The notes beneath the pieces are model-generated. The model saw only the letters and a list, made by a program, of their open reading frames with translations. It was not told the origin of the DNA and ran no database searches. A program made the position numbers and the translations under genes. From positions 10,044,001 to 10,108,000 of the forward strand of contig NZ_CP107989.1 in assembly GCF_041435015.1 (NCBI RefSeq): a DNA stretch of 64,000 bases. The letters are read 5' to 3'. This DNA comes from Streptomyces canus (GTDB taxonomy: Bacteria; Actinomycetota; Actinomycetes; Streptomycetales; Streptomycetaceae). Positions 6,520 through 61,717 of this stretch are shown here, one piece after another; positions within the stretch are counted from its first letter, which is position 1; each line of letters starts with the position of its first letter.

Positions 6520-6564
6520 CCGGGACGGTTCTCCGAGCGAAGATCACTCGGAGAACTGTCCCGG
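6520..6564. terminator. Bidirectional hairpin between convergent genes
   Basis: Arms at 6520-6537 and 6547-6564 pair over 18 bp with a single G/T wobble and a 9-base loop. It lies between the stop of the ArsR gene and the stop of the convergent trypsin-fold gene, the position expected for a shared terminator. Confidence 0.75.
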
Positions 6565-6628
6565 ACTACCGCCGCCTTCGCCGCGCATCTCGGCGTCGTG
6601 GCGGCAGGATCGAGATCATCCCCGCCGC

Positions 6629-8170
6629 TCAGATGATGCGGTAGGGCCCCCAGCCGGTGCCTGCCTGGTAGCGGGTGCCGAGGGTTTCCATGCCGGGCTT
6701 TCCGGTGCCGGGGTAGACCCACAGCGTGTTGTCGGACGCCTGACGGGAGAGCACGTCGGTGAGCCCGTCACCGTTGTAGTCCCCGGTGCGGACGGCGTTC
6801 TGGGTCTGCCAGCTCCTGCCGACCTGGTAGCGGGTACCGAAGGCACCCCCGCTCGCCTTTCCGGTGCCGGGGTAGACCCACAGCGTGCCGTCGGACGCCT
6901 GACGGGACAGCACGTCGGGGCGCCCGTCGTTGTTGAGGTCGCCGGTGGTGATGATGTCCTGGCTCTTCCAGCCGGTGCCGACCTGGTAGCGCGTGCCGAG
7001 GGTTTCCATGCCGGGCTTTCCGGTGCCGGGGTAGACCCACAGCGTGCCGTCGGACGCCTGGCGGGTCAGTACGTCGGTGAGACCGTCGGTGTTGAAGTCC
7101 CCGGTGCGGGTGACGTCCTGGGTCTGCCAGCTCCTGCCGACCTGGTAGCGGGTGGCGAAGGCTTCCATGCCGGGCTTTCCGGTGCCGGGGTAGACCCACA
7201 GCGTGCCGTCCGACGCCTGGCGGGACAGCAGGTCGCCGATGCCGTCGTTGTTGAGGTCTCCGACGGTGACGGCGTTCTGGCTCTGCCAGCTGGTGCCGGC
7301 CTGGAAGCGGGGGCCGAAGGTGCTGCCGCTCGCCTTTCCGGTGCCGGGGTAGATCCACAGAACGCCGTCGTCCTTGATGGCCGCGAGGTCGGCCTTGCCG
7401 TCATCCGTGAGGTCGTCCGGGTTGCGGGAGATCGCGTACGCGACCCAGTCGCTGATGTCGTCGACCCGGGTGTCGACGGCACCGGTACGAGTCTCGGCGG
7501 GATCGTTTCCGAGACATCCGCCCTGCCAGGAACGGGAGTTGACGGCGACGAGTTCCGTGGTGCCGTTGACGGTGCGCAGGGCGGGGCCGCCGGCGTCGCC
7601 CTTGCAGACGGTCGCGGTGTCGGAGCCGTTCAGGTCCACTGTCGTGTCCGCGGTGGAGGCGACGGTGAACGTACCGGTGTGGAGCTTGTCGGGTACCCAT
7701 TCGGTCCTGGTGCGTCCGAATCCGGCCTTCACCAGCTCGTCACCCGCGGCGGCGGGCGTGGTGGCCAGCCGGACCGGCGTGATGCTCGGATCGGTGATCC
7801 TGGCGGCGAGTTTGACGAGCACCAGATCCCGGTCGGCATGGGGGACGAGCCGGATGGCCGGCAGGACGCTGCCGCTGGTCTGCGTCAGGTCGGTGCGGCC
7901 GACGGTGACGGTGGTGGTGACGGCGGGCCTGCCCGCGGGGGGCTTGCCGTCCGCGGCGAAGCAGGTGGCCGCGGTCAGGACCCACTGCGGGTCGACGAGG
8001 GTGCCGGTGCAGGCACTCTGCTCGCCGACGTTGATCTTGGCGACGTAGTTCAACTGCGCCGGGGCGTCCGCTCCGGTGAGCGCGGTGGCGTCGGCGGAGC
8101 TCAGGGCGACGGGGGCCGCGACCAGCGCAGCGGCCAACGCGGCGAGACGGGGGCGTCTGGAGAGGTGCAT
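6629..8170 (-). CDS. Secreted trypsin-fold pseudoprotease with FG-GAP/VCBS repeats (left copy)
   Basis: A 513-residue secreted protein. Residues 1-30 form a signal peptide; about 38-245 form a chymotrypsin-fold domain; about 250-513 hold five repeats around GDLNNDGIGDLL and DGTLWVYPGTGKPG, FG-GAP/VCBS-type blades. The catalytic His is Thr69 (LTAATCF for LTAAHC) and the catalytic Ser is Ala193 (CKGDAGGP for GDSGGP), while Asp115 remains. By family knowledge it should not be an active serine protease and may be a binding or scaffold protein. It follows the small secreted gene by 86 bases on the same strand and probably shares its promoter. A divergent paralogue lies at 13614-15830. Confidence 0.88.
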   Translation of the reverse strand: MHLSRRPRLAALAAALVAAPVALSSADATALTGADAPAQLNYVAKINVGEQSACTGTLVDPQWVLTAATCFAADGKPPAGRPAVTTTVTVGRTDLTQTSGSVLPAIRLVPHADRDLVLVKLAARITDPSITPVRLATTPAAAGDELVKAGFGRTRTEWVPDKLHTGTFTVASTADTTVDLNGSDTATVCKGDAGGPALRTVNGTTELVAVNSRSWQGGCLGNDPAETRTGAVDTRVDDISDWVAYAISRNPDDLTDDGKADLAAIKDDGVLWIYPGTGKASGSTFGPRFQAGTSWQSQNAVTVGDLNNDGIGDLLSRQASDGTLWVYPGTGKPGMEAFATRYQVGRSWQTQDVTRTGDFNTDGLTDVLTRQASDGTLWVYPGTGKPGMETLGTRYQVGTGWKSQDIITTGDLNNDGRPDVLSRQASDGTLWVYPGTGKASGGAFGTRYQVGRSWQTQNAVRTGDYNGDGLTDVLSRQASDNTLWVYPGTGKPGMETLGTRYQAGTGWGPYRII

Positions 8171-8256
8171 GAACGTGGATTCCTAGTCACGAGGGCTGCG
8201 CGTCCTGTGGGGCACCGGACCGCGCAGCGGTGAGCATGGCGGGTGTCGGCCTGGGG

Positions 8257-8799
8257 CTACTTGGAGGACCTGATCTCCAGGAGTGTGAACTCACGGCCCT
8301 GTTCGTCCGTGCTCTCGCCCACCGGGGTCCAGGCGTTCTTGGCGATGTCGTACGTCGTCTCCTCGGTGCCGACCGTCATGTCGACCTCGGTCGTGTAGTC
8401 GTTGCCGCGGACGAGGTAGACCGACGGCAACTCCAGGGTCAGCCAGCCCGAGTTGCCCTTGACGTCGAAACACACCTTGCTCTTGTCGCGCGCCTGGACC
8501 TCCAACTGACCGGTGCCGCTCGCGCAGTCGGCGAGTGTGATGTGGCCGTCGCCGCGCTTGAGCAGGATGTTCTTCTCGGCCAGGATCTTGTCCGCCTGCG
8601 GATAACCGAAGTCCTCCACCGCATAACCGGGGGCGCCCTCCGCGACCAGTGCGGTGGGGCTCGTCTGCTGCGACGCCCCGCCGGGAATGCCCGTGGCCGC
8701 CATGATCCAGGCCAGGGCGCCGACCCCGGCCGCACCCAGGGCGCGCAGCGCAAGCCGCCTGCGCCGCGGTTGCGCGGACGTTCTGTTGTATTTCCTCAT
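8257..8799 (-). CDS. Small secreted protein of unknown function (left copy)
   Basis: A 180-residue protein with an Arg-rich signal region (RRRRLALRALGAAGVGALAW) and a mature part starting near GYAVEDFGYPQADKILAEK. It contains two Cys (LADCASG, KVCFDVK) that could form a disulfide, and ends FTLLEIRSSK. No enzymatic motif is seen; I recall similar uncharacterised secreted proteins in Streptomyces. GGGGGA six bases before the ATG at 8799 supports that start over an upstream TTG. About 121 residues are identical to the right copy, whereas the signal peptide and linker differ. It is first in a two-gene unit with the pseudoprotease. Confidence 0.85.
   Translation of the reverse strand: MRKYNRTSAQPRRRRLALRALGAAGVGALAWIMAATGIPGGASQQTSPTALVAEGAPGYAVEDFGYPQADKILAEKNILLKRGDGHITLADCASGTGQLEVQARDKSKVCFDVKGNSGWLTLELPSVYLVRGNDYTTEVDMTVGTEETTYDIAKNAWTPVGESTDEQGREFTLLEIRSSK
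8269..8631 (-). repeat. 363-bp inverted repeat, left arm
   Basis: This segment, read on the minus strand, matches 13243-13605 on the plus strand over 363 bases with one difference seen (8284 versus 13590). It covers nearly all the mature coding part of the small secreted gene. Homology stops sharply at both ends, inside the coding sequences. Confidence 0.95.
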
Positions 8800-8925
8800 T
8801 GCATCCCCCAAGTTCGTCGCCTACGGCCGGATGCTCATCACCGGGCGTGAATTCGGGTGCACAGGAATGCGATATCGACATCGCTCCGCCGGGTATGCCC
8901 CCAACTCCTGTGGAAAGCAGTCCCC

Positions 8926-8948
8926 GTACCTCTCGCAGCGAGAGGTAC
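8926..8948. promoter_or_regulatory. 23-bp palindrome upstream of left secreted unit
   Basis: Perfect 11-base arms, GTACCTCTCGC and its complement, flank a single central A. It lies about 127 bases before the ATG at 8799 on the minus strand, in a 380-base interval with no gene, so it could be a regulator binding site. The rest of 8800-9180 shows nothing recognisable. Confidence 0.5.
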
Positions 8949-9180
8949 CCCCGTCTCGGTAATCGTCATCCGCGTCGCCATATCAACATGAAGTGACACC
9001 CAGGTCGAGTGCCTAGAAGCGTGCGTAAAGCGACATTCTTCGTTGATGTTTCGTGATCCGTGCCACACTCCGCAAAGGTTGTGCCGGAGGCTGTGAAGGA
9101 TCGGTGAATGCCTCTCGACGGCCCGTCAGAAGTTGCAATTTCAATGGAAGTTGGAGAGTGAGGTTCGTTGAGAGCCCGGG

Positions 9181-9215
9181 GACCGGGCGGCACCTATGTG
9201 CGGTGCCGCCCGGTC
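9181..9215 (-). terminator. Strong hairpin terminator after ALF-repeat gene
   Basis: Arms 9181-9194 and 9202-9215 pair perfectly over 14 G/C-rich bases with a 7-base loop. The hairpin starts 8 bases after the stop of the minus-strand gene ending at 9223. Confidence 0.85.
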
Positions 9216-9222
9216 GCCTGAG

Positions 9223-12200
9223 TCAGAACATCGAAGAGAGGCCGCTGGTGATCGAGGAGACGAGTTCCTTTCCTTCCTCGGCGACCTCCTTCACCACGGG
9301 AGCCACCCTCTTGGCGACGGGAGTGATCCACTTGGACTGGCCGTAGGTGACCAGGCTCAGCGCGGTGCCGGCCGCGGCCCACATGAACTCGCTGCTGGTG
9401 AAGCCGTGTTCGATGCCGGTGAACAGGGTGCTCAACGCGCCGGCGCCCATCGCTATGCCGCCGAAGATCGCTGCGGCCGGCACACCGACCACGGCGAACG
9501 GGGGGAAGACGAGGCTGGCGACTCCCAGGCCGGCGGAGATGAGTCCCGCGCCGACGCTGACGTAGCTGAAGGCATCGGCCCACCAGCCCGCGTCGGAGTA
9601 CCACGCGTCGTTGTCGCCGCCGCTGCCGTTCTGGTTGACGTCGTCGTTGGTGTCGCTGTCGGCCGGGTTGTGGCCGTTGTCCCGGTCCTGCTGTGCCTTC
9701 TCGGCCGCCTCGCGGGCGGCCTCGCGGGCCTCCGCCTGGCGCTTCTGGACGACGATGGCGCGTGCCTGGTTCGCCGCGGCGGCGGCCGTGGCCGCGTCCC
9801 GGCCCGCTTCGAGCGCGGACTGGCGGGCGCCGGCCGCGGACTGCTGGGCGCTGTAGGCGGAGGCCAGGGCCGAACGGGCGGCGTCGATCGCCTTGTTCGC
9901 GGAGTAGTTGGCCGACCGGGAGGCGGTCCGCGCTGTCGAGGCGGCGGCCGAGGCCTTGTTCGCGGAGGCCTGTGCGTCGGCGGCCGACTTGTCCGCCGCA
10001 TCGGCGTTCTGCCGGGCCTGGTCGGAGTACTGGCCGGCCTTCGTGCCCGCGGCGATGGCCTTGTCCGCCCATTCCTGGGCCTCCGCGGCGGCGTTGCGGG
10101 CGGTCGCCGCCACCTGCGACGCCAGGGCGGCGGTCTGCTGCGCGGTGTAGGCGGTCTTGGCCGCGGCGGCGATGGCCCCCTGGATCGCGGCGACGTGGGT
10201 GGCGGCGTCGTGGTCCAGCTGGGCCGCGGCGTACTGCACGACCTGGACGAAGTTCCGGCGCATCCACGTCGGCCCCTCCAGGGCGACGTCCCCGTATGCC
10301 TTGGTGTAGTCGCCGCCGTTCGCCACCGAGGTGGCCGTCTCGACCGCGTCGTCCTCCCGTACGGCGGCGGGGTAGGTGCGGTCGAAGAAGTCCTGCAACG
10401 CCTCCGGGGTGTTCTTGTCCAGTGCGTCGTTGGCCGCCTTGGTGACGGCCTTGCCGGGCTTCTGGTCGAGGATGCGGCCGATTTGCACCCGGTTGTCGTC
10501 CTGCGAGGCCCGGATCACCCCGGAGGTCAGGAAGTCCCCGATCGCCGTGGCACTGCCGCTGTCCAGCGCGGCCAGTGCCGCCTTGGCGATGGCGGGGTTG
10601 GACACCTGGGCGATGTAGAGGACGGTCTCCCGGTCGTCCTGGTTCTGCGCGACGGCCCGGTCGAGGTCGATCCAGGAGAAGACGTCGTCGTCGCTGCCGG
10701 ACAGCGCGAACTGGGCGGCCTCCCGTGTCCACGCTCCCTTGGCCTCCAGCAGCCCGGTCGCGGCCTTGCGGCCCAGGGTCGAGGCGAGGGACAGGTCGCC
10801 GTCTGTGAAGAGGGCCTTCTCGGCCGCGCTGATCAGGTCCTTGAGCGCTTGATCGGTCTGTGCTTCCTGGGCCCGCTTGTTCGCGTACTCGGCCTGCTGC
10901 TGGGCCTCGATCTCGGCCAGCAGCCGGGCCTCGTCCAGGCCCTGGAGCCGTTCCTGCTCCAGGCGCGCGAGTTCCGCCTCCCGCGCCGCCTTGGCGACGG
11001 CGATGGCATCCGTGACGGCCTGGGTGGCCGTGTCGGCGGCCTTGACTGCCTCGCCGGCGTGGGCGGTGGACTTGTTCGCGAAGTCGATGGCCTTGCCCGC
11101 GTTCGCCACGGCCTCGTCGACGGCGGCGGCCGCCTTCTCGGCGTGGGCGGCGGCGGAGTTGGCGGCATCCCGTGCGGTGCTCGCCGCCTTCGCGGCCGTG
11201 TTGGCCAGGGCCTGCGCGGTGGAGGCGGCGTTCGTGGCGCGGTTGGCGGCAGCGGAGGCGATGGCGGCCTGGCGCTTGGCCTCGGCGGCCTGCGACTGGG
11301 CGACGCCGGACGCGGCCGCTGCCTGAGCGGAGGCGGCAGCCGCGGCCGCGGAGTTGCGAGCTGCGGAGGCGGCGGAGGAACTGGCGCTGACGGACTGCGC
11401 GCAGGCGGCCCGCGCGTAGTCGGCGGCCTTGGCCGCGGAACGCGCCTTCGCGGCGGAGTTGCGGGCGGCGACCGCCGCGTCCTTGGCGGCCTGGGTCTTG
11501 CTCGCGTCCTTGGAGGCCGCGATAGCCGCGTTGTAGGCCCGGGACGCGGCGCCGCCGGCGGCGGACGCGGCCTGGGAGGCGGCGGTGGCCGCCCAGGAGG
11601 CGCGACGGGAGGCGTTCACGGCCGCGTTGGAGGCGTTGATGGCGATCCGGGCGGCGTTCGCGGCCCCCGAGGCCGCACTGGCCGCCTTGCGGGCCGCGGC
11701 CGCGGACTTCTGTACGTCCTCCTTGGCGGCCTCAGCCTCGGCCGCGGCCTTCTCCGCCGCCTTCTTCGCCTCGGCCGCGGCGGCCTGGGCCCGCTCGGAC
11801 GCCTCGACGGCCAGGTCGGTCTCGGCCTGGGCACGCTTGCCCTCCCGGTCGACGACCGCGACGAGTTCCTCGATGGTCGCCGACTCCTGGTCGCGCGCGC
11901 GGGCGATGTGCTGGCCGGTGTCGAGGAACCACTGGATGTCCGTGGCGGAGCCGTTCAGGGCGCGGTTGGCGTACTTCTGCACCTCCGGCCCGGTGTTGAC
12001 CAGCATGGCGGAGACCTGGAGCTTCGAGTCCTCCAGGCGGGCGGTGTACTGGCCCTCCGTCAGGAAGGCCTCCAGCGCCGAGCGCGTGCCCGTGTCCAGA
12101 GCGGCGGACGCCTTGCGCTGGACCGCCTTTCCGCCGGTGGCCGACAGGATGGCGGTCGCCACCCGGAGGTCTTCCAGGAGCGCCGAATCGTAACCGTCCT

Positions 12201-12588
12201 CGAGGAAGGCCGCGATGGCGCTGTCGCCGTTGTCGAGAGCGGCGACGGCCTCACGGCGCAGGCCCTTTCCGGAGCGGGCGAGGCAGCTGGCGATCGCGAC
12301 GCGGTTGTCCTCCGTCGTCACCGTCGGCAGGGTTTGGCCGAGGAAGACCTGGATGTCGGCATCGGTGCCGAAGAGTGCGTCGGCCGCCGCCGCCTTGGTG
12401 GCCCTGCCACCGGTCATCCAGGCCTTGACCACCTTGGCCCGGTCGGTGTTCGGCAGGGTGAGCGGATCGGGCGTCGCCGTCTCGGCAGCGCGGGCCACGG
12501 GGGTCCACGCCAGGGGTGCGGCGGCGACGGCTGTGACGGTGGCGAGCGAGCCGAGAAGCCGTCTGCGACTCCAGAAAATCGTCTGCAT
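9223..12588 (-). CDS. Giant secreted ALF-repeat, Ala-rich coiled-coil protein
   Basis: A 1,121-residue protein. The N-terminus MQTIFWSRRRLLGSLATVTA is a Tat-like (twin/triple Arg) signal ending near ARAAE. Residues about 45-285 hold ALF-type repeats (for example RREAVAALDNGDSAIAAFLE), recurring near 660-860. The rest is extremely Ala-rich and likely long coiled coil. Near the C-terminus a hydrophobic Gly/Ala stretch (GAGLISAGLGVASLVFPPFA and onward) could insert into a membrane. The ATG at 12588 is preceded by GAGGA and gives a clean signal peptide; in-frame starts further upstream would bury it. Function unknown; the architecture suggests an elongated extracellular structural or effector protein. 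It lies between two outward-facing paralogous units. Confidence 0.85.
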   Translation of the reverse strand: MQTIFWSRRRLLGSLATVTAVAAAPLAWTPVARAAETATPDPLTLPNTDRAKVVKAWMTGGRATKAAAADALFGTDADIQVFLGQTLPTVTTEDNRVAIASCLARSGKGLRREAVAALDNGDSAIAAFLEDGYDSALLEDLRVATAILSATGGKAVQRKASAALDTGTRSALEAFLTEGQYTARLEDSKLQVSAMLVNTGPEVQKYANRALNGSATDIQWFLDTGQHIARARDQESATIEELVAVVDREGKRAQAETDLAVEASERAQAAAAEAKKAAEKAAAEAEAAKEDVQKSAAAARKAASAASGAANAARIAINASNAAVNASRRASWAATAASQAASAAGGAASRAYNAAIAASKDASKTQAAKDAAVAARNSAAKARSAAKAADYARAACAQSVSASSSAASAARNSAAAAAASAQAAAASGVAQSQAAEAKRQAAIASAAANRATNAASTAQALANTAAKAASTARDAANSAAAHAEKAAAAVDEAVANAGKAIDFANKSTAHAGEAVKAADTATQAVTDAIAVAKAAREAELARLEQERLQGLDEARLLAEIEAQQQAEYANKRAQEAQTDQALKDLISAAEKALFTDGDLSLASTLGRKAATGLLEAKGAWTREAAQFALSGSDDDVFSWIDLDRAVAQNQDDRETVLYIAQVSNPAIAKAALAALDSGSATAIGDFLTSGVIRASQDDNRVQIGRILDQKPGKAVTKAANDALDKNTPEALQDFFDRTYPAAVREDDAVETATSVANGGDYTKAYGDVALEGPTWMRRNFVQVVQYAAAQLDHDAATHVAAIQGAIAAAAKTAYTAQQTAALASQVAATARNAAAEAQEWADKAIAAGTKAGQYSDQARQNADAADKSAADAQASANKASAAASTARTASRSANYSANKAIDAARSALASAYSAQQSAAGARQSALEAGRDAATAAAAANQARAIVVQKRQAEAREAAREAAEKAQQDRDNGHNPADSDTNDDVNQNGSGGDNDAWYSDAGWWADAFSYVSVGAGLISAGLGVASLVFPPFAVVGVPAAAIFGGIAMGAGALSTLFTGIEHGFTSSEFMWAAAGTALSLVTYGQSKWITPVAKRVAPVVKEVAEEGKELVSSITSGLSSMF

Positions 12589-13053
12589 AGAAAGTTGTCC
12601 TCGTGGTTTCTGCCGGCGAGGCAGATCGGCGATCACTGACACGGCAGGCTTCCCCCGCATGGCCGGGCAGTCATGTGTGGCACCGGTGAGGCGTATGCGT
12701 TGCCTGCGCAATGACGTGACCATACCAACGCAGGCGCACCGGGCAATCAATTTGGCGCCGTGAATTAAATCCATCTCGCGTGAAAGGTGCCCCAGCTTCG
12801 TTACCGCTTCTTTATAAGGGTCGGTACAACCCTTCCGGGAGTGTGGCGAGGGTCACAGGGGACCATCAACTGTCGTCCGTTTTATGGCCGTTGGCGGAGT
12901 GGACAAGCCGGGAGAAGCGAGGTGGCATGTGGGAGGCAAAGCGACCCCCGGGGCCCGGGGTGAGCTCTTTGTGCGGGGGAAAAGCGATTCCTTCACGCCT
13001 GCCCTGAACCACGTTACGGATTTCTTTTAATAAGCAACGAGTTGAGGAAAGTG
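12589..13053. other. Divergent intergenic region of ALF-repeat and right secreted genes
   Basis: These 465 bases separate the ALF-repeat start from the right small secreted gene and must hold both promoters. Its AT content rises near 12770-12830 and 13010-13040. No gene is supported, and the 23-bp palindrome seen upstream of the left unit has no evident counterpart here. Confidence 0.5.
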
Positions 13054-13617
13054 ATGAAGTCGCGCACCACATTTGCCGTGAAGCCGCGCCCCTTTGCGGC
13101 GCAGACACGGCGCGGAAGATTTCTGGCCCGCGCCGTGGGCGCGGCAACCGTCGGCGCCCTGGCATGGACCGGCCTGGCGGCCGGGCTGCCCGGAGGATCC
13201 CACGCCGAGGCCGGCACTGCCACGACCGTCGCGGACAGCGCTCCCGGTTATGCGGTGGAGGACTTCGGTTATCCGCAGGCGGACAAGATCCTGGCCGAGA
13301 AGAACATCCTGCTCAAGCGCGGCGACGGCCACATCACACTCGCCGACTGCGCGAGCGGCACCGGTCAGTTGGAGGTCCAGGCGCGCGACAAGAGCAAGGT
13401 GTGTTTCGACGTCAAGGGCAACTCGGGCTGGCTGACCCTGGAGTTGCCGTCGGTCTACCTCGTCCGCGGCAACGACTACACGACCGAGGTCGACATGACG
13501 GTCGGCACCGAGGAGACGACGTACGACATCGCCAAGAACGCCTGGACCCCGGTGGGCGAGAGCACGGACGAACAGGGCCGTGAGTTCACGCTCCTGGAGA
13601 TCAGGAGCACCAAGTGA
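13054..13617 (+). CDS. Small secreted protein of unknown function (right copy)
   Basis: A 187-residue paralogue of the protein at 8257-8799. Its signal region (RRGRFLARAVGAATVGALAW) and linker differ, but from GYAVEDFGYPQ to LLEIRS the residues are identical to the left copy. GAGG about six bases before the ATG at 13054 supports that start; TTG 13042 and GTG 13051 are in-frame alternatives. Its stop overlaps the GTG start of the adjacent pseudoprotease (GTGA), so the two proteins are translationally coupled and probably act together. The near-identical coding DNA beside diverged flanks indicates recent gene conversion or duplication. Confidence 0.85.
   Translation: MKSRTTFAVKPRPFAAQTRRGRFLARAVGAATVGALAWTGLAAGLPGGSHAEAGTATTVADSAPGYAVEDFGYPQADKILAEKNILLKRGDGHITLADCASGTGQLEVQARDKSKVCFDVKGNSGWLTLELPSVYLVRGNDYTTEVDMTVGTEETTYDIAKNAWTPVGESTDEQGREFTLLEIRSTK
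13243..13605 (+). repeat. 363-bp inverted repeat, right arm
   Basis: Right partner of the repeat at 8269-8631, in opposite orientation, 362 of 363 bases matching by eye. The arms enclose 4.6 kb containing the ALF-repeat gene plus the promoters and signal-peptide codons of both small secreted genes. Confidence 0.95.
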
Positions 13618-15830
13618 CCCGACGGATCAGCCCCCTTCGCCGCCTCGCGCCGACCGCGGCCCTGTGCGCGGGTGCCGTGGTGCTGGCCGGCGTTCCCGCC
13701 GCCGCCGTGACCGGTCCCGAGGTCGCCGCCGCCGACACCACCTACGCCTACACCGCCCAGATCACCGTCGGCGACCACGACCGCGGCTGCTCCGGGGTCC
13801 TCGTGGACGCCGAGTGGCTGCTGACCGCGGCCAGTTGCTTCGCCGCCGACCCGGCCACCAGCCTGAGCGTGCCTTCCGGCAAGCCGGCCACCAGGACCAC
13901 CGCGGTCATCGGCCGCTCCGACCTGACCGGTACCGCCGGCGCCGCCCGCCAGATCGTCCAACTGGTCCCGCGCACCGACCGCGACGTCGTTCTGGCCCGC
14001 CTGAACCGCCCGGTCACGAACGTCGCCCCGCCGGCCCTGGCCACCGCCGCGCCCGCCGCCGGCGAGACCCTCACCCTCGCCGGCTACGGCCGCACCGCGA
14101 GCGAATGGGCACCGCTGAAGCTCCACACCGGCGCCTTCTCGGTGAACTCGTCCACCGCCACCACCGTCACCGTCACCGGCAAGGACGGCGTGGCCGCCTG
14201 CATGGGTGACACCGGCGGACCCGTCGTCCGCGTCAGCGGCGGCACCGCCCAACTGGCCGCGCTCGCCAGCCAGTCGTACCAGGGCGGCTGCTACGGCATC
14301 GACTCGACCGTGACCAGCACTGGCGGGATCGCCGCCCGCGTGGACGACCTCGCCTCCTGGGTCAGCTCCACCACCGGCGCCGTCCGCGCCACCGACTTCA
14401 ACTGCGACGGCGTCGAGGACACCGCTGTATCCGACCCCCAGGCCACCGTCGACGGCGCCGCCAAGGCCGGCCTGGTGCGGATCGTCTACGGCGGCGGCAA
14501 GGGCACCGCCGAGATCAACCAGGACCTCGACTGGGTCTCCGGAGCCGCCGAGGCCGGTGATGGATTCGGCCAGGCCATCGCCACCGTCGACTACGACGAG
14601 GACGGCTGCACCGACCTGGTCGTGGGCACCCCGGCCGAGGACATCGGCACCGTGGCCGACGCGGGCATGGTCGACATCCTGCACGGCGCGACCGGCGGCC
14701 TCGGTACCGGCACCGCCAAGGACAGCCACCTCGAACAGGGCGCGGGCACCGGCTCGTTGGCGGCTTCCGTCAGCGAGACCGGCGACCGCCTGGGCCACGC
14801 CCTGGCCGCCGGCACCACCGCGTCCGGAGAGCCGTTCGTCGTGATGGGCGTGCCCGGCGAGGCCCTCGGCTCCATCGCCAAGGCCGGCAGCGCGATCTAC
14901 CTGCACGGCACCACCAACATCGCGATCAACCAGGAGGCCACGGGGGTCTCCGGCGCGGCCGAGGCGAACGACGGCTTCGGCACGAGCGTCGCCGCCGACG
15001 CCAACTACCTCGCGATCGGCGCACCCGGTGACGCCATCGGCTCGGACGCGAACGCCGGAAACCTGGCCGTCTTCTCCCACACCCTGAACTCCGAGAACCG
15101 CCCCACCCCGAGGTTCGGCCTGGACCAGGACCTCGACACGGTCTCCGGTGGCGCCGAGGCCGGTGACCTCTTCGGGCAGTCCCTGGCCCTGGTCCCGTAC
15201 CGCCCCTCGGGTGCCGCTGCCGCCACGGAGTCGATCCTCGCGGTCGGCGCACCTGGCGAGGGGCTCGACGTCGACGGCGTGGACAAGGCGGAGGCCGGCC
15301 TGGTGCAGACCTTCCGGATCACCGCTGCCGGCACCTACACCCAGCTCCAGGGCTACGACTCGGGCACCGCCGACGACGACGTCTCCGGCACCGCGGAGGC
15401 CGGCGACCACTTCGGCCAGACTCTCGCCGCGGTCAATACGACACCGCGCGCGGTGAGCACCACGGCGACGATGAAGCTCGCCGTCGGCATCCCGGACGAG
15501 GCCATCGGCACCACCGCGAGCGCGGGCGCCGTGGAGACCTTCTCGCTGCTGGGCACTCCCGGCGCCAACGACCGCTGGCTGGAGGCCGGCGACGGGGACG
15601 GCATCCCCACCGCCCCGGGCGCGAACCAGAAGCTCGGCAGCAGCCTCCACTACACCGGCACCCGCCTGTACGTCGGTCTGCCCTACGGGCCGTCCACGTA
15701 CGGCACCCTGTACGCCCTGCCGCTGTCCAACGTGACCGCAGGCGGCGCCGTCGCCGCGGTGACCACGTACCAGCCCGGAGCCGGTGGCCTCCCCGCCGCC
15801 GGAACGGACTTCGGCTACGCCGCACGGTGA
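13614..15830 (+). CDS. Secreted trypsin-fold pseudoprotease with FG-GAP repeats (right copy)
   Basis: A 738-residue secreted protein starting at GTG, with AGGAG about 7 bases upstream. A signal peptide covers residues 1-31, a chymotrypsin-fold domain about 43-255, and about six FG-GAP-type blades follow, marked by recurring EAGDxFGxxLA and LAVGxPGE patterns. Integrin-type FG-GAP propellers bind protein or carbohydrate partners. The catalytic His is Ser74 (LTAASCF) and the catalytic Ser is Thr (CMGDTGGP), so activity is unlikely. It is longer than the left paralogue and its propeller repeats differ, suggesting two binding specificities coupled to one shared small partner. Confidence 0.88.
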   Translation: MTRRISPLRRLAPTAALCAGAVVLAGVPAAAVTGPEVAAADTTYAYTAQITVGDHDRGCSGVLVDAEWLLTAASCFAADPATSLSVPSGKPATRTTAVIGRSDLTGTAGAARQIVQLVPRTDRDVVLARLNRPVTNVAPPALATAAPAAGETLTLAGYGRTASEWAPLKLHTGAFSVNSSTATTVTVTGKDGVAACMGDTGGPVVRVSGGTAQLAALASQSYQGGCYGIDSTVTSTGGIAARVDDLASWVSSTTGAVRATDFNCDGVEDTAVSDPQATVDGAAKAGLVRIVYGGGKGTAEINQDLDWVSGAAEAGDGFGQAIATVDYDEDGCTDLVVGTPAEDIGTVADAGMVDILHGATGGLGTGTAKDSHLEQGAGTGSLAASVSETGDRLGHALAAGTTASGEPFVVMGVPGEALGSIAKAGSAIYLHGTTNIAINQEATGVSGAAEANDGFGTSVAADANYLAIGAPGDAIGSDANAGNLAVFSHTLNSENRPTPRFGLDQDLDTVSGGAEAGDLFGQSLALVPYRPSGAAAATESILAVGAPGEGLDVDGVDKAEAGLVQTFRITAAGTYTQLQGYDSGTADDDVSGTAEAGDHFGQTLAAVNTTPRAVSTTATMKLAVGIPDEAIGTTASAGAVETFSLLGTPGANDRWLEAGDGDGIPTAPGANQKLGSSLHYTGTRLYVGLPYGPSTYGTLYALPLSNVTAGGAVAAVTTYQPGAGGLPAAGTDFGYAAR

Positions 15831-15836
15831 CCCATG

Positions 15837-15872: not shown

Positions 15873-16190
15873 TCATCCGGCGTCGAGCGCCGACGAATCC
15901 ACCGAGCTTCGCTGCCGACGGTGTCGCACGGTATCCGCGCAGGCAGGAGGAGGACCGCCCCTGCCGGGACTTCGGCGTCCGCAGCGGCCCGACCACCGAC
16001 GACTTGGACGCACCGGCGGCATCAATCGGCGCGGCCCGTCGGCGACGTGGACCGGTCCCGAAAGCCGACGCCGCCCGGGTGCCCCGCCACCCAGTGCGGA
16101 CCTGACGCTCCACCTCCCCGAGAGCCGGGCAGCGTCCGCGGTCCACGGCACCGCCGTGCCGTTCCCGCCAAGAAAAGGGGTATGACGATC
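15873..16190. other. Interval without a supported gene
   Basis: A plus-strand open frame continues into the following nuclease gene but has low-complexity Arg/Pro-rich translation and no ribosome-binding site. The interval probably only carries the promoter and leader of that gene. Confidence 0.5.
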
Positions 16191-18164
16191 ATGCACGCGA
16201 TACGACCTGAACGGCCCGGACGAAGACGAGCCCGGTCGGCCCTGTTGGCCCTCCTGACCGCGGTGACGCTGGGCCTGTCCACCGGTGTGAGCTCCGCCCA
16301 GCAAGGGGAGGGAGAACAGGTGCGACAGGTGGGCAGGCCCACGTCGGCGGAGGCGCCGGCGACCGCCCCGCTCACCAGGACCAGCGCCTTTCCCGCGGAA
16401 CCCGGGGAGCACTGCCGGCCCACCCGTGCGGGCTCGAAGGAGCGCCGGGCGGGCGCCACCGAGGCATGTGTGAGCACGAGCCCGGCCCCGGTCAAGCACT
16501 CGGCGACACAGCAGCAGCGTCTCACCGCGCTCGCGGCCGCCGACTCCGGCAGCTGCGACATCACCACCCCCGGCAGCTACTCCTACAAGCGCTTCGCGTA
16601 CTGCGTGAGCGGGGTGAGCGTCGTCTACATCCTGCGTGACAGCAACGGCAAGGACATCGGACGGGGCACCCTGGCGGTGTCGACCAGTGCGACCCTGCCC
16701 GCCAAGGGCACCAAGTGGGACGAGCAGGTCACGGTGACGATGACCGCCGCGAGCGGCAGCGTCACCGCCCTCAACGCCAAGTTCAGGGCCTCCTGCGGAA
16801 CCGGCTGCACGGCGACGAAGACCGCCCCCTGGTACGGCGGTGACCTGACCCTGGGCCAGTCCCTCAGCGGCACCGTCGCCTACTCCTCGGCCCCGGCCCC
16901 GGGCACCGACGTACAGTTCACCACCTCGTACAAGCTGTACGTGACGTCCCCGGGCGCCACGGCCGTCGACCCGAACGCCTCATGGGACAACCCCCGCAAG
17001 ATCCGCTGCGACGACGCGGTCCGGGACGTCACTGCCACGAGCACGGCGTCACCAGGTTGCGTCATCCCCTCTGTCATGGCCGTCGTGCCGATGAGCGCGC
17101 AGGGCTCGGACCCCGGTGGCGCGGTGGCCGCCTACCAGTGGGCGCAGCAGAACCTCGCGGACGGCTGGGGGCAGAGCAAGCCGCTGACCAGGGAGAAGAG
17201 CGGGACAGCCGACCGTACGGCGCGCACCTGCGGAAGCGCGGGCACCGAGCCCTTCGAGGCCAACACGGACCTCGTCGACACCGACACCTGTGGCGAGTTC
17301 CCCTTCGCGGAGGTCAAGGAGGGAGGAATCGACGGCGGTGAGTGCGTCGAGGTGATCCCGAATGCCAGCAGCGGCGCATGGGATACCTACGTCCTCGGCG
17401 ACAGCCGGGACATGGATCCCGCCGCGCCCTGTGTGCGCGCCCATGTCCCGGCCGCCGACAAGCAGTTCGCCGACGGGAAGCTCACCGAGGGCTTCGAGAA
17501 CCAGCGGGTGATCGACGCCGACCAGTTCAAGGTGGCCTTCACGACGCCGGCCGACGTCCCGCAGGCCCCTTGCCTGGCGAACCTGCCGACCGGTGCGCTT
17601 CCTTCCGGCACCGGGTGGATCAAGAACACCACCGAAGCGGTCGCCCACGTCAACAAGACCACCACCCCGCTCGGCTCGCCCGGCACCCGGCCGACGACGG
17701 CGCAGGCCTGCCTGGGGAAGACGCTCGGCAAGGGCAAGGAGGCCTCGGGGGACATCACCGGCTGGCAGGACGCTCAGCTGTTCGCCCAGGCGAACCCGCC
17801 CGTCGTCGCACAGGCCCGGTGCCACCTGATCGCGAACATCCTCGGCGGACCGGGCAGGATCCGGGACGGCGGGCAGAACAACCTCGTCCCGTGCTGGCAG
17901 GTGGGGATGAACACCGGTACCCCGAGCATGCGGACCTACGAGTTCGAGGCTCAACGGACCGTGGCGCTGGACTCCTTCGGGCCGAACGACGCGATCTTCT
18001 ACCAGGTCACGCCCGTCTTCCGGGACGAGACCAGCACCATTCCGGTGGGTGTCACGATGAGCGCTAACATCCAACGGGCGAACGGCACGACGGAGCAGCT
18101 GTTCCCCAACGTCTTCGTCCCCAACACCCAGGCGGACACTGGGTTGCTCAACCTCGGAAACTGA
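16191..18164 (+). CDS. Secreted protein with NucA/NucB-like and DNA/RNA endonuclease-like domains
   Basis: A 657-residue protein with a signal peptide (RARSALLALLTAVTLGLS). Residues about 115-255 form a Cys-containing beta-rich region. A NucA/NucB-type segment is near 355-400, with DTCGEFPFAEVKEGG matching the family's C-D-E-Y-P-F-A block. Near 540-620 CHLIANILGG and NNLVPCWQVGMNT resemble the R-G-H-L-I-A/N-L-V-P core of DNA/RNA non-specific endonucleases, though Gly before His is Cys here. It may be an extracellular DNase for nutrition or competition. The ATG at 16191 is chosen because AGGGG lies 10 bases upstream; the ATG at 16182 is too close to it. No immunity gene is evident, as expected for an exported scavenging nuclease. 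Confidence 0.7.
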   Translation: MHAIRPERPGRRRARSALLALLTAVTLGLSTGVSSAQQGEGEQVRQVGRPTSAEAPATAPLTRTSAFPAEPGEHCRPTRAGSKERRAGATEACVSTSPAPVKHSATQQQRLTALAAADSGSCDITTPGSYSYKRFAYCVSGVSVVYILRDSNGKDIGRGTLAVSTSATLPAKGTKWDEQVTVTMTAASGSVTALNAKFRASCGTGCTATKTAPWYGGDLTLGQSLSGTVAYSSAPAPGTDVQFTTSYKLYVTSPGATAVDPNASWDNPRKIRCDDAVRDVTATSTASPGCVIPSVMAVVPMSAQGSDPGGAVAAYQWAQQNLADGWGQSKPLTREKSGTADRTARTCGSAGTEPFEANTDLVDTDTCGEFPFAEVKEGGIDGGECVEVIPNASSGAWDTYVLGDSRDMDPAAPCVRAHVPAADKQFADGKLTEGFENQRVIDADQFKVAFTTPADVPQAPCLANLPTGALPSGTGWIKNTTEAVAHVNKTTTPLGSPGTRPTTAQACLGKTLGKGKEASGDITGWQDAQLFAQANPPVVAQARCHLIANILGGPGRIRDGGQNNLVPCWQVGMNTGTPSMRTYEFEAQRTVALDSFGPNDAIFYQVTPVFRDETSTIPVGVTMSANIQRANGTTEQLFPNVFVPNTQADTGLLNLGN

Positions 18165-18195
18165 TCTCAGCCAGTACGTGCCTACGGGAGCCAGT

Positions 18196-19242
18196 ATGAG
18201 TCGCACCACCCCGCCGCGGCCGTTCGACATCGCCGCGCTCTTTCCTCAACTGGCTCCCCTGGCACGCACGGCGACTCGGCTGCATCCCCTTCCCGGGTCT
18301 CCGTCACCGCACGACAGCTCCGTCGGCGGACCGTTGCTGTGGCCCGCCGACGAGCCGTGGCCGCAGTGCGAGGGCCCGCACAAGTGGGACGGGGTGAACG
18401 CGGCCCTCTCACCGCAGGACGTACGGCAGTGGCGTCGCAACCGGGCGGAGTCGGAAAGCCGACGGCGCCGCGAGCCCGAGGGGCCCTGGGCCACGCCCGA
18501 GGAACTGGCGACGGAGGAGCGGCTCATGGCCGGCCGTCCTTGGCCTGAGGGCCCGATCGCCATGCTGCCCGTCGCACAGCTCTCCGCACGCGACATCCCG
18601 CTGCTGCGCCCGCCCGGCGGGTCCGAAGCCGATCTGCTCCAGGTCCTCTGGTGCCCCTTCGACCACCCGGCCCACCCCAGGACCGCACTGTTCTGGCGGT
18701 CCGCCGCCGAGGTCACCGACGTACTCGACACACCACCCGAGCCGCCCGCGGTCCAGTTCCCCGGCTATGTGCCGGAGCCGTGCCTGTGCACGCCGGAGCA
18801 GGTCACCGAATACCCCAGCTATCTGGAGCTGGACAAGGAGCTGCAGGAGCAACTGGCCGACTGGAGCAGGTGGCAGGCGGCCGGTCCCGCACTGGACACT
18901 TCCTACGAGGTCGCCCCCGAGGAGCTCTACATGGACATGCTGTCCGTCTCCCCGGGCTGGAAGACCGGTGGCTGGAGCCGCTGGGGCCTCACCGACCCCA
19001 TGCCCCGGCTCTGCCCGGCATGCGGCACGGGGATGGACCCGCTGCTGACGATCGCCTCGACCGAATGGAACGACGGCACCGAGAGCTGGGCCCCCGAAGA
19101 GGAGCAGACCGACCCCACGCCGCTCCTCCCCGGAACCCCGCCGGCGAACTTCACCATGCTCGACCTCGCCCGAGGCTACGACCTGCAACTCCACGTGTGC
19201 CCGGCATCCGCGGACCACCCGCACATCGAACTGATCCAGTAA
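18196..19242 (+). CDS. DUF1963/YwqG-like protein
   Basis: A 348-residue cytoplasmic protein without signal peptide. SSVGGPLLWPADEPWPQCEG near the N-terminus and KTGGWSRWGLTDPMPRLCP followed by CGTGMDPLLTIASTEW near the C-terminus match the DUF1963 layout. A CxxC pair (LCPACGTG) may bind zinc. GGGAG five bases before the ATG at 18196 sets the start. It follows the nuclease gene by 31 bases and may be cotranscribed. The biochemical role of the family is unknown; members often occur in variable regions, but nothing here shows it is an immunity protein. Confidence 0.75.
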   Translation: MSRTTPPRPFDIAALFPQLAPLARTATRLHPLPGSPSPHDSSVGGPLLWPADEPWPQCEGPHKWDGVNAALSPQDVRQWRRNRAESESRRRREPEGPWATPEELATEERLMAGRPWPEGPIAMLPVAQLSARDIPLLRPPGGSEADLLQVLWCPFDHPAHPRTALFWRSAAEVTDVLDTPPEPPAVQFPGYVPEPCLCTPEQVTEYPSYLELDKELQEQLADWSRWQAAGPALDTSYEVAPEELYMDMLSVSPGWKTGGWSRWGLTDPMPRLCPACGTGMDPLLTIASTEWNDGTESWAPEEEQTDPTPLLPGTPPANFTMLDLARGYDLQLHVCPASADHPHIELIQ

Positions 19243-60428: not shown

Positions 60429-60667
60429 GGAGCCCGACCGTAGCAGCGCGCGGCCGTCCGCTCCCCTGGATTTTCCCCGCATACCGCCAGGCCCTGCTCT
60501 CATGCCGGGCAGGCGAGCGCGATCCCCGCAACTACCGGGCTTTTCTCGGACTGGCACCCGCCCTGTTTTGCTACAAAACGACGCGCCCGCCTCACCACGT
60601 AGGACACGGTCTTAGCACGCTCTTTAACCTTTGGCGGAGCCTCAATGACACCGGTAGGTTCTCCGCG

Positions 60668-61537
60668 GTGACCTTGATGGAGACGCAGGGCCTCGCGTCG
60701 ATGACCGACGAGGCGCAGTTACGTTGGATGGCGTTGGGCGACACGACTCGGCAGCCGCCGGTGGTCATGCTCCACGGCGGTCCGGGGCTGCCGGACTATC
60801 TGGGCGATGTCGCCCCCATGGTCGCGGACCTCGCGCCCGTGTACCGATACGACCAGCGTGGCACAGGCCAATCCCCGTGGCAGGGCCGCCATTCCTTCGC
60901 CCGGCATGTCGACGATCTCGCCGAGCTGCTCGACGCATGGGACGTTCCCAAGGCCGTGCTGATCGGGCACTCCTACGGCACTGATCTGGCGAGCCGGTTC
61001 TGTCTGACACATCCTGACCGGGTTGCCGCGATGCTGCTGATGTGCGGGCCGTTCGTCGGTGATTGGCGTACCGGGGACCGAGCGGAGCGCGGACGCCGCA
61101 TGTCCGCAGCCCAGCAGGAGCAGCTCCGCGCGTTGGAGGAGTTGCCGCACCGCACGGAGGAGCAGGAAGTCGAGCTGCTCACCCTGGCCTGGTTCACCGA
61201 CCACGCCGATCCCGAACGCGGGTGGCACTGGGCAGCGCAGGGTGCCCGGCGGCGTCGCCCCATCAACTGGGCGATGAACAGCGAGCTCGGCAAGGAAGGC
61301 CGCGCGGACCCGCTCGATGAACATCTTGCCGAGCTCCGCGCATGCCTGCCCGCGCGGGCGGAGCTCCTCGGTGGAGCCGACGACCCCCGTCCTGTGGCGG
61401 CGCTTGAAGTACTCGCACTCAGGCTCGACATTCCGCTGACCCGGGTCGACGACGCCGGGCACGAGCCCTGGTTGGAGCAGCCCAACACCATGCGGGCGCA
61501 CCTTCGGCGCTTCGTGCAACGCACGGTGGGCTCATAG
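60668..61537 (+). CDS. Alpha/beta hydrolase, proline iminopeptidase-like, with TTA codon
   Basis: A protein of about 289 residues. The oxyanion/cap motif HGGPGLPDYLG, RYDQRGTGQS, the nucleophile elbow GHSYGTDLA and a late DDAGHEPWLEQ (His) match proline iminopeptidase-type hydrolases. Possible starts are GTG 60668, ATG 60677 and ATG 60701; GTG 60668 is used because GGTAGG lies about 9 bases upstream. Codon 18 is TTA (60719-60721), rare in Streptomyces and read by the bldA tRNA, so expression may depend on developmental stage. The substrate is unknown. Confidence 0.82.
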   Translation: MTLMETQGLASMTDEAQLRWMALGDTTRQPPVVMLHGGPGLPDYLGDVAPMVADLAPVYRYDQRGTGQSPWQGRHSFARHVDDLAELLDAWDVPKAVLIGHSYGTDLASRFCLTHPDRVAAMLLMCGPFVGDWRTGDRAERGRRMSAAQQEQLRALEELPHRTEEQEVELLTLAWFTDHADPERGWHWAAQGARRRRPINWAMNSELGKEGRADPLDEHLAELRACLPARAELLGGADDPRPVAALEVLALRLDIPLTRVDDAGHEPWLEQPNTMRAHLRRFVQRTVGS

Positions 61538-61717
61538 GGCTTCGACCGGATTGCCGGCCGGCCTCATCCCCGGCTGTCGGCATCGCGGCAGGGCTGGCGT
61601 CGAAATGGTCCTCGAACCAGGCCGCTCACCTGGGTGTTCGCCGGACACCGAGGCGGCCTTCATCTGATCATGTGCTCCGACCAAGGACACACATGAGCAC
61701 GACGAAGGCCGTTGAAG

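Follow-up and report, generated by a model that had tools for sequence, protein, structure and literature searches.

A hybrid umbrella-toxin locus of Streptomyces canus in which the mature part of one lectin adaptor appears to have been replaced by gene conversion

Gene content of the locus

The DNA analysed here (the window) is a stretch of 64,000 nucleotides (nt) from Streptomyces canus (assembly GCF_041435015.1, contig NZ_CP107989.1, positions 10,044,001 to 10,108,000, forward strand) in which two small genes for secreted proteins share an almost identical coding part in opposite orientation. An earlier inspection of the letters and open reading frames (ORFs), here called the sequence-only reading, had placed an ALF-repeat gene between them and a pseudoprotease gene beyond each. 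By its gene content the locus is an umbrella-toxin (Umb) locus, with the small secreted genes as umbB adaptors, the pseudoproteases as umbA lectins and the ALF gene as umbC. The left (L) and right (R) units and the gene between them are as follows.

6629..8170, minus strand: umbA_L, trypsin-like pseudoprotease with FG-GAP repeat lectin (Pfam Trypsin and FG-GAP_3; PDB 8w20_C; L-type orthologs at 80-92% in six loci)
8257..8811, minus strand: umbB_L, adaptor whose signal peptide is L-type and whose mature part is R-type (ortholog segments, diagnostic sites)
9223..12774, minus strand: umbC, ALF-repeat polymorphic toxin of the particle (Pfam ALF, seven stretches; PDB 8w20_A)
13042..13617, plus strand: umbB_R, resident adaptor and putative donor of the converted tract (PDB 8w20_B, E 5.2e-19; R-type orthologs)
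13614..15830, plus strand: umbA_R, trypsin-like pseudoprotease with FG-GAP lectin (Pfam domains; PDB 8w20_C)

The two founding papers on these particles are PMC11062931 (the 2024 paper) and PMC13274773. The umbC product aligned with the UmbC1 chain 8w20_A over query residues 67-1035 (E 2.8e-105), and Pfam recognised seven ALF stretches in it, eight ALF repeats being counted in UmbC in the 2024 paper (PMC11062931). The alignment of UmbB_R with 8w20_B (E 5.2e-19) includes the AVED motif, and chain C of 8W20, which with 8W22 represents the Umb1 particle structures deposited with the same paper (PMC11062931), was matched by both outward genes, umbA_L and umbA_R. The start of umbA_R overlaps the stop of umbB_R. 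Read by eye, the positions of the His and Ser motifs of the UmbA catalytic triad are occupied by T/S and A/T, where we assume the canonical triad motifs as the reference; by this reading the trypsin-like domains would lack the full triad and are joined to a predicted lectin.

Extent of the inverted repeat

A repeat search returned one long inverted pair, 8254-8646 and 13228-13620, whose arms are 98% identical over 393 nt and lie 4581 nt apart. Position-by-position comparison delimits within it an unbroken core of 363 base pairs (bp), composed of the following two arms.

8269..8631, minus strand: left arm of the inverted repeat, the putative converted tract (arm comparison and diagnostic sites)
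13243..13605, plus strand: right arm of the inverted repeat (arm comparison)

The sole mismatch in the core, at 13590 versus 8284, is synonymous (codons ACG and ACA, both Thr). A repeat of this length and identity cannot have arisen by chance. Both cores start at codon position 1, and within the arm umbB_L and umbB_R have the same translation. Mismatches cluster just beyond the core, at 13236, 13237 and 13242 on one side and at 13606, 13607 and 13609 on the other. Ungapped 25-nt windows across 13100-13199 reach 60-76% identity between the arm flanks, the signal-peptide codons of umbB_L and umbB_R are 50-53% identical in alignment, and identity drops to 12-36% directly downstream of the arms. 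The enclosed segment contains, besides the ALF gene on the minus strand (9223-12774), the 5' end of each outward gene. The sequence-only reading had the arm coordinates, the single difference, the sharp boundaries, the divergence of signal peptides and flanks, and the contents of the enclosed segment right.

An L-type unit joined to an R-type locus

In many of the relatives examined the umbA-umbB unit is divergent from umbC, although other layouts exist (for example at loci L060, L069, L072 and L079). The right part of the present locus, 9222-15834, is collinear with R-type loci at 82-92%, in one piece in genome G172 and in two pieces in G141 and G068. G201 matches the window in umbC-umbB_R (92%) and in the outer flank of its R locus, from which umbA_R has been lost, and the R locus of G014, whose contig ends inside umbC, gave one aligned piece at only 75%. 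The left part aligns in one piece, at 84-88% over 2.5-2.6 kb, with six L-type loci (G189, G141, G201, G006, G107 and RP5T, the last being the same genome as G242). This collinearity starts at 6520 in G189 or at 6616-6629 in the five others, and ends at 9100-9157. In all six, umbA_L-umbB_L diverges from an umbC of another kind, which shares 64-69% identity with that of the window. Homology to the R-type loci begins at 9219-9222, and the two homologies meet at 9157-9221, which adds two features.

8812..9156, minus strand: L-type umbB promoter region, collinear with L-type loci elsewhere (alignment to L loci)
9157..9221, no strand: junction of the putatively imported L unit and the R-type locus (homology ends on either side; a hairpin, 9167-9229, starts within it)

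A DNA search with the junction between the L unit and umbC in the 394-genome family sample gave, among the matches listed, end-to-end cover only in G000, the genome of the window; the best other genome among them stops at query position 1058, about 9157 in the window. Past the 3' end of umbC, the window, G201, G172, G141 and G068 have in common only 25-58 bp at the extreme umbC end (blastn, E <= 1e-4). On these alignments the locus is a hybrid of a resident R-type unit (umbC, umbB_R and umbA_R) and what would be an imported L-type lectin unit.

Gene conversion of umbB_L by umbB_R

The left arm is 87-93% identical to R orthologs and 78-80% identical to L orthologs, and its 363 nt are the length found in R orthologs, the L orthologs having 366 nt with one extra codon. 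On the left, the promoter, the signal peptide, the intergenic tail and the start of the lectin gene group with the L type, at 66-96% depending on segment and ortholog. We defined as diagnostic those sites at which at least six of seven L orthologs agree on one base and all five R orthologs agree on another. In the left arm 28 of 31 such sites carry the R base, one the L base and two another base, whereas upstream of the arm 24 of 25 are L and one is R, and the only downstream site is L. Arm identity places the 5' switch of type at 8632. As the left mature part is R-type inside L-type flanks, the direction is from R to L. Overwriting of mature umbB_L by umbB_R through gene conversion is thus strongly supported: the tract is nearer to its partner (1 of 363 positions mismatched) than to its own L orthologs, the type switches sharply, and the flanks keep their ancestry. 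Recent gene conversion had been the fallback of the sequence-only reading, to which the orthologs add the direction. Of 121 third codon positions, one separates the two arms, whereas 17-27 separate the right arm from the five R orthologs (17 for G201); by this measure the conversion seems to postdate the divergence from those R-type relatives.

When the R protein is compared with three L orthologs, 27-29 differences fall in the last 81 columns and 3-5 in the first 41, which include AVED. This distribution fits a replacement of the putative UmbC-facing side of UmbB; UmbB has been modelled as inserting AVED into the UmbA cleft, and UmbC1 of S. coelicolor is specific for UmbB1 (PMC11062931). With UmbB as the link between lectin arm and ALF ring, and with UmbC1 selective for its cognate adaptor, the conversion would let UmbA_L mount on the resident UmbC. 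Both adaptors would then bind the same UmbC, and one particle could display both lectins.

Adaptor homogenisation in other genomes

In order to place this case among others, 113 umbB genes from the loci examined were compared, under 56 genome labels (at most 54 genomes, since two labels are duplicates). After one truncated copy from G202 was dropped, 39 genomes had at least two umbB copies, counting only multi-copy genomes with examined copies. In nine of the 39 a pair reaches at least 95% identity over the mature part; in the other 30 no pair exceeds 90%. Ten intragenomic pairs are at least 96.5% identical in the mature part. Six of them combine this with only 55-77% identity in the 150 nt upstream: those of G264 (99.7%), G000 (98.9%), G014 (98.9%) and G159 (96.8%), and two pairs of G038 (99.5% and 98.7%). 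In the third G038 pair and in those of G316, G268 and G201 the upstream stretch is alike too (93-100%), which suggests simple duplication or a larger, recent exchange. Across genomes, in a comparison set that is small, six pairs reach 96.5%; two of them pair a genome with itself under a second name, and the remaining four are 85-96% identical upstream.

In G000, G264, G014 and G038 the near-identical block begins at roughly the mature start, ends close to the stop codon and contains 1-7 mismatches; in one G038 pair it reaches 115 nt further upstream. The G159 pair has an indel and its first 60 nt downstream are identical, so that it is not confined to the mature part. Judged by these alignments, homogenisation of the mature part with diverged upstream sequence recurs in G264, G014 and G038, with G159 as a related case, which suggests that adaptor exchange happened more than once. 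The homogenised copies are direct in G264, on different contigs in G014 and in mixed orientation in G038, and inversion is therefore not their common factor.

Three other genomic arrangements were observed in this survey. In G268 (L050:9167-10851) two umbB genes form a 572-nt inverted repeat, 100% complementary and 541 nt apart, one gene pointing at umbC and its partner leading into two umbA genes. In G038 (L048:8443-12112) two umbA trypsin parts form an inverted repeat of 634 nt, also 100% complementary, which encloses both convergent lectin-coding parts (2402 nt) in a shufflon-like topology, and the locus contains three near-identical umbB genes. In G316 (L158 and L159) a single contig carries two oppositely oriented umbB genes, about 130 kb from each other, that are identical in the mature part and in the 150 nt upstream.

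A motif common to both umbB promoters

The promoters of the two umbB genes align over 49 columns at 75.5%, with the core ACAACC-N8-12-GTG-N5-GRTCAC, located by pattern search as follows.

9053..9082, minus strand: umb promoter motif, left copy
12826..12856, plus strand: umb promoter motif, right copy

The exact core pattern occurs twice in the 10.68-Mb genome, each time pointing at a umbB. The 700 nt before the mature part of 111 umbB genes were searched, with 2220 single-base shuffles and 107 downstream stretches as controls. With up to two mismatches the motif was found in 36 of the 111 genes versus 10 of the 2220 shuffles and 4 of the 107 downstream stretches, and with up to three mismatches in 54 versus 164 and 19, respectively; these counts include the two window copies, which match by construction because the pattern was derived from them, and many of the matching genes are L or R orthologs. 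The match is exact in 13 of the 111 genes, and 57 show none even at three mismatches. We regard the motif as a candidate regulatory site for umbrella toxins, and its right half as presumably resembling a Crp-type site, itself a candidate only. It bears on how umb genes are regulated, which the 2024 paper lists as an open question (PMC11062931). A perfect 11-bp palindrome in the left umbB promoter (8926-8948) was set aside, being single in the genome up to three mismatches and imperfect in L-type relatives.

Proposed course of events and alternatives

The identity of the locus, its hybrid make-up, the direction and extent of the conversion and the parental linkage on both arms are established at the level of the DNA. 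The course of events that we consider probable, with good confidence, is that an imported L unit had its adaptor converted from R to L without crossover, making UmbA_L mountable on the resident UmbC. An L-type lectin unit (umbA_L and umbB_L with their promoter), elsewhere tied to a different umbC, would have arrived beside the resident R-type unit. After or together with this arrival, homologous recombination would have copied mature umbB_R into umbB_L, with promoter, signal peptide and lectin remaining those of the L unit. The converted UmbB_L would then mount UmbA_L on the resident UmbC, giving one particle with two lectins, and the inverted orientation would be a by-product of the landing site of the L unit. 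A converted adaptor on an otherwise intact lectin unit would be a concrete route by which a new lectin gains compatibility with an existing particle, a question that the available parts of the founding papers do not address (PMC11062931, PMC13274773); umbrella particles have been proposed to hedge by mixing lectins on one toxin (PMC13274773).

Several observations weigh against this account. In other genomes the mature parts of the two types reach only about 76-79% identity, and the longest exact run common to the right arm and L mature parts is only 17-32 nt, both low for recombination. The diagnostic sites by themselves place the 5' switch only between 8669 and 8563. The R-type promoter is weakly conserved (57-82% among R loci), so that the linkage on the R side is carried mostly by collinearity. 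Conversion in another strain followed by transfer may fit equally well as conversion in situ. Lastly, in G264 and G159 the homogenised pairs belong to loci whose two UmbCs differ (41% identical in the former, 53% over 357 residues in the latter), and compatibility with a single UmbC cannot then be the only cause.

This last observation also speaks for the most serious alternative, which accepts the conversion and disputes only its cause. Mature umbB could simply be the best-conserved stretch between the paralogs and recombine most, with no selection for compatibility; the tract does stop where the homology of the two genes stops, and the 30 multi-copy genomes without a similar pair are in keeping with it. 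Despite the low identity of the two types, however, the block spans the full mature part in four genomes, and the only detectable umbC here is R-type, which favours selection. We hold such neutral conversion to be possible but the lesser candidate.

It is unlikely that mature umbB, and in G038 also the trypsin part of umbA, serve as recombination modules whose near-identical inverted copies, placed around promoters (the present locus, G268) or around lectin halves (G038), let cells reversibly reassort the lectin expressed. The inverted repeats of G268 and G038 keep this idea alive at low probability, and if true it would add a recombination-driven layer of bet hedging over lectin expression. 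Orthologs in the alternative orientation were sought in 120 genomes: for the G268 locus only G268 itself was recovered at E <= 1e-30, and for the G038 locus only partial matches, in 13 genomes including G038.

The headline proposal of the sequence-only reading, that the 4.6-kb segment flips by recombination between the umbB arms and exchanges promoters and signal peptides of the two lectin operons, we consider very unlikely. The arms are long, near-perfect, inverted and in the same reading phase, and G268 has a similar topology (572-nt perfect umbB arms around 541 nt). Each arm of the window, however, retains parental linkage, with promoter, signal peptide and downstream lectin of one ancestral type. 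Swapped linkage (umbA_L on the R promoter and signal peptide, or the converse) was seen in none of 11 orthologous loci, six L and five R, of which 10 are informative, the R locus of G201 being uninformative because it is without umbA_R. Homogenised umbB pairs elsewhere also occur as direct copies (G264) or on different contigs (G014). Both promoters carry the same motif, so that, if the motif matters, an exchange of promoters might change little. A single assembly leaves room for inversion by homologous recombination at low frequency. The comparison of arms in relatives that had been proposed along with the inversion did reveal concerted evolution of umbB copies in some of them, affecting the coding part and not an invertible cassette; the outcome named as its refutation, arms diverging independently in all relatives, was thus not what the survey returned.

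Two further explanations of the near-identical arms are hardly credible: a recent inverted duplication of one umbB-umbA unit with fast divergence of its flanks is refuted by the collinearity of the left part with the six L-type loci (84-88% over 2.5-2.6 kb), since the left flanks are not diverged R sequence, and a collapsed or chimeric repeat in the assembly is opposed by the one site at which the arms differ, the unique flanks, the 10.4-Mb contig and the collinearity of both flank sets with other genomes.

Other features of the locus

The start of umbC may be the ATG at 12588. By reading, a twin-arginine-like signal begins at UmbC residue 63, and several homologs align only from this residue (for example those of L037, L042, L044, L064 and L066), others from further upstream. 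The UmbC C-terminus reads as hydrophobic; two domain libraries gave no family beyond ALF, and an NCBIfam scan returned only a FusH esterase model and one XAC2610 domain match, both under their cut-offs. No obvious immunity ORF was seen beside umbC at 8812-9222; for UmbC2, the available part of the 2024 paper likewise reports no candidate immunity protein (PMC11062931). One detectable umbC, two umbB and two trypsin-type umbA genes were counted in the genome, all inside the window, and three more matches to the UmbA_L query cover its later part only, taking in little or nothing of the trypsin domain. Relatives of UmbB were detected in 138 of 392 genomes of a genus sample (E <= 0.001), in 80 of 395 genomes of an overlapping sample of relatives and, at the stricter E <= 1e-30, in 61 of 394 genomes of the family sample, which overlaps too.

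The flank at 16112-19241 is common to R-type loci and is also found beside the L-type loci of G107 and G006, there on the umbC side, which suggests a common chromosomal site for different umb loci. The stretch 60618-61640, about 54 kb from the left unit, is 83% identical to sequence beside umbA_L in G189 (L042:6851-7872).

Comparison with known systems

The umbrella-toxin system is already known, and homogenisation of its adaptors is undescribed in the literature found. A search for umbrella toxins in Streptomyces together with gene conversion returned no paper, and a wider one on inverted repeats, gene conversion and concerted evolution in the genus brought up one, on rRNA operons; the available part of PMC11062931 holds nothing relevant on inversion, gene conversion, duplication or recombination, and that of PMC13274773 nothing on the first three. 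The locus resembles that of the umbrella particles of S. coelicolor (UmbA/UmbB/UmbC; 8W20 and 8W22; PMC11062931, PMC13274773) in having all three protein types and AVED, a UmbA that by reading is without the full triad, umbB beside umbC, and more than one UmbA in the genome. The adaptors UmbB1-3 of S. coelicolor are on average 39% identical (PMC11062931), whereas the mature proteins of the two window adaptors are identical over the arm. Unlike the S. coelicolor system, the present one, known here from its genes, has two umbA-umbB units of different ancestry flanking one umbC.

Phase-variable inversion systems, shufflon-like or with inverted promoters, invert DNA between homologous coding segments. 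The window resembles them in its outward, in-frame inverted coding arms around a promoter-bearing segment and differs in that the alternative orientation was unseen in the 11 orthologous loci and that conversion accounts for the arms. Bacterial paralogs subject to gene conversion and concerted evolution show a tract that is closer within a genome than to its orthologs, with sharp ends and flanks of other ancestry. The same signature is present in the window, where the tract coincides with the module that would bridge lectin and toxin scaffold.

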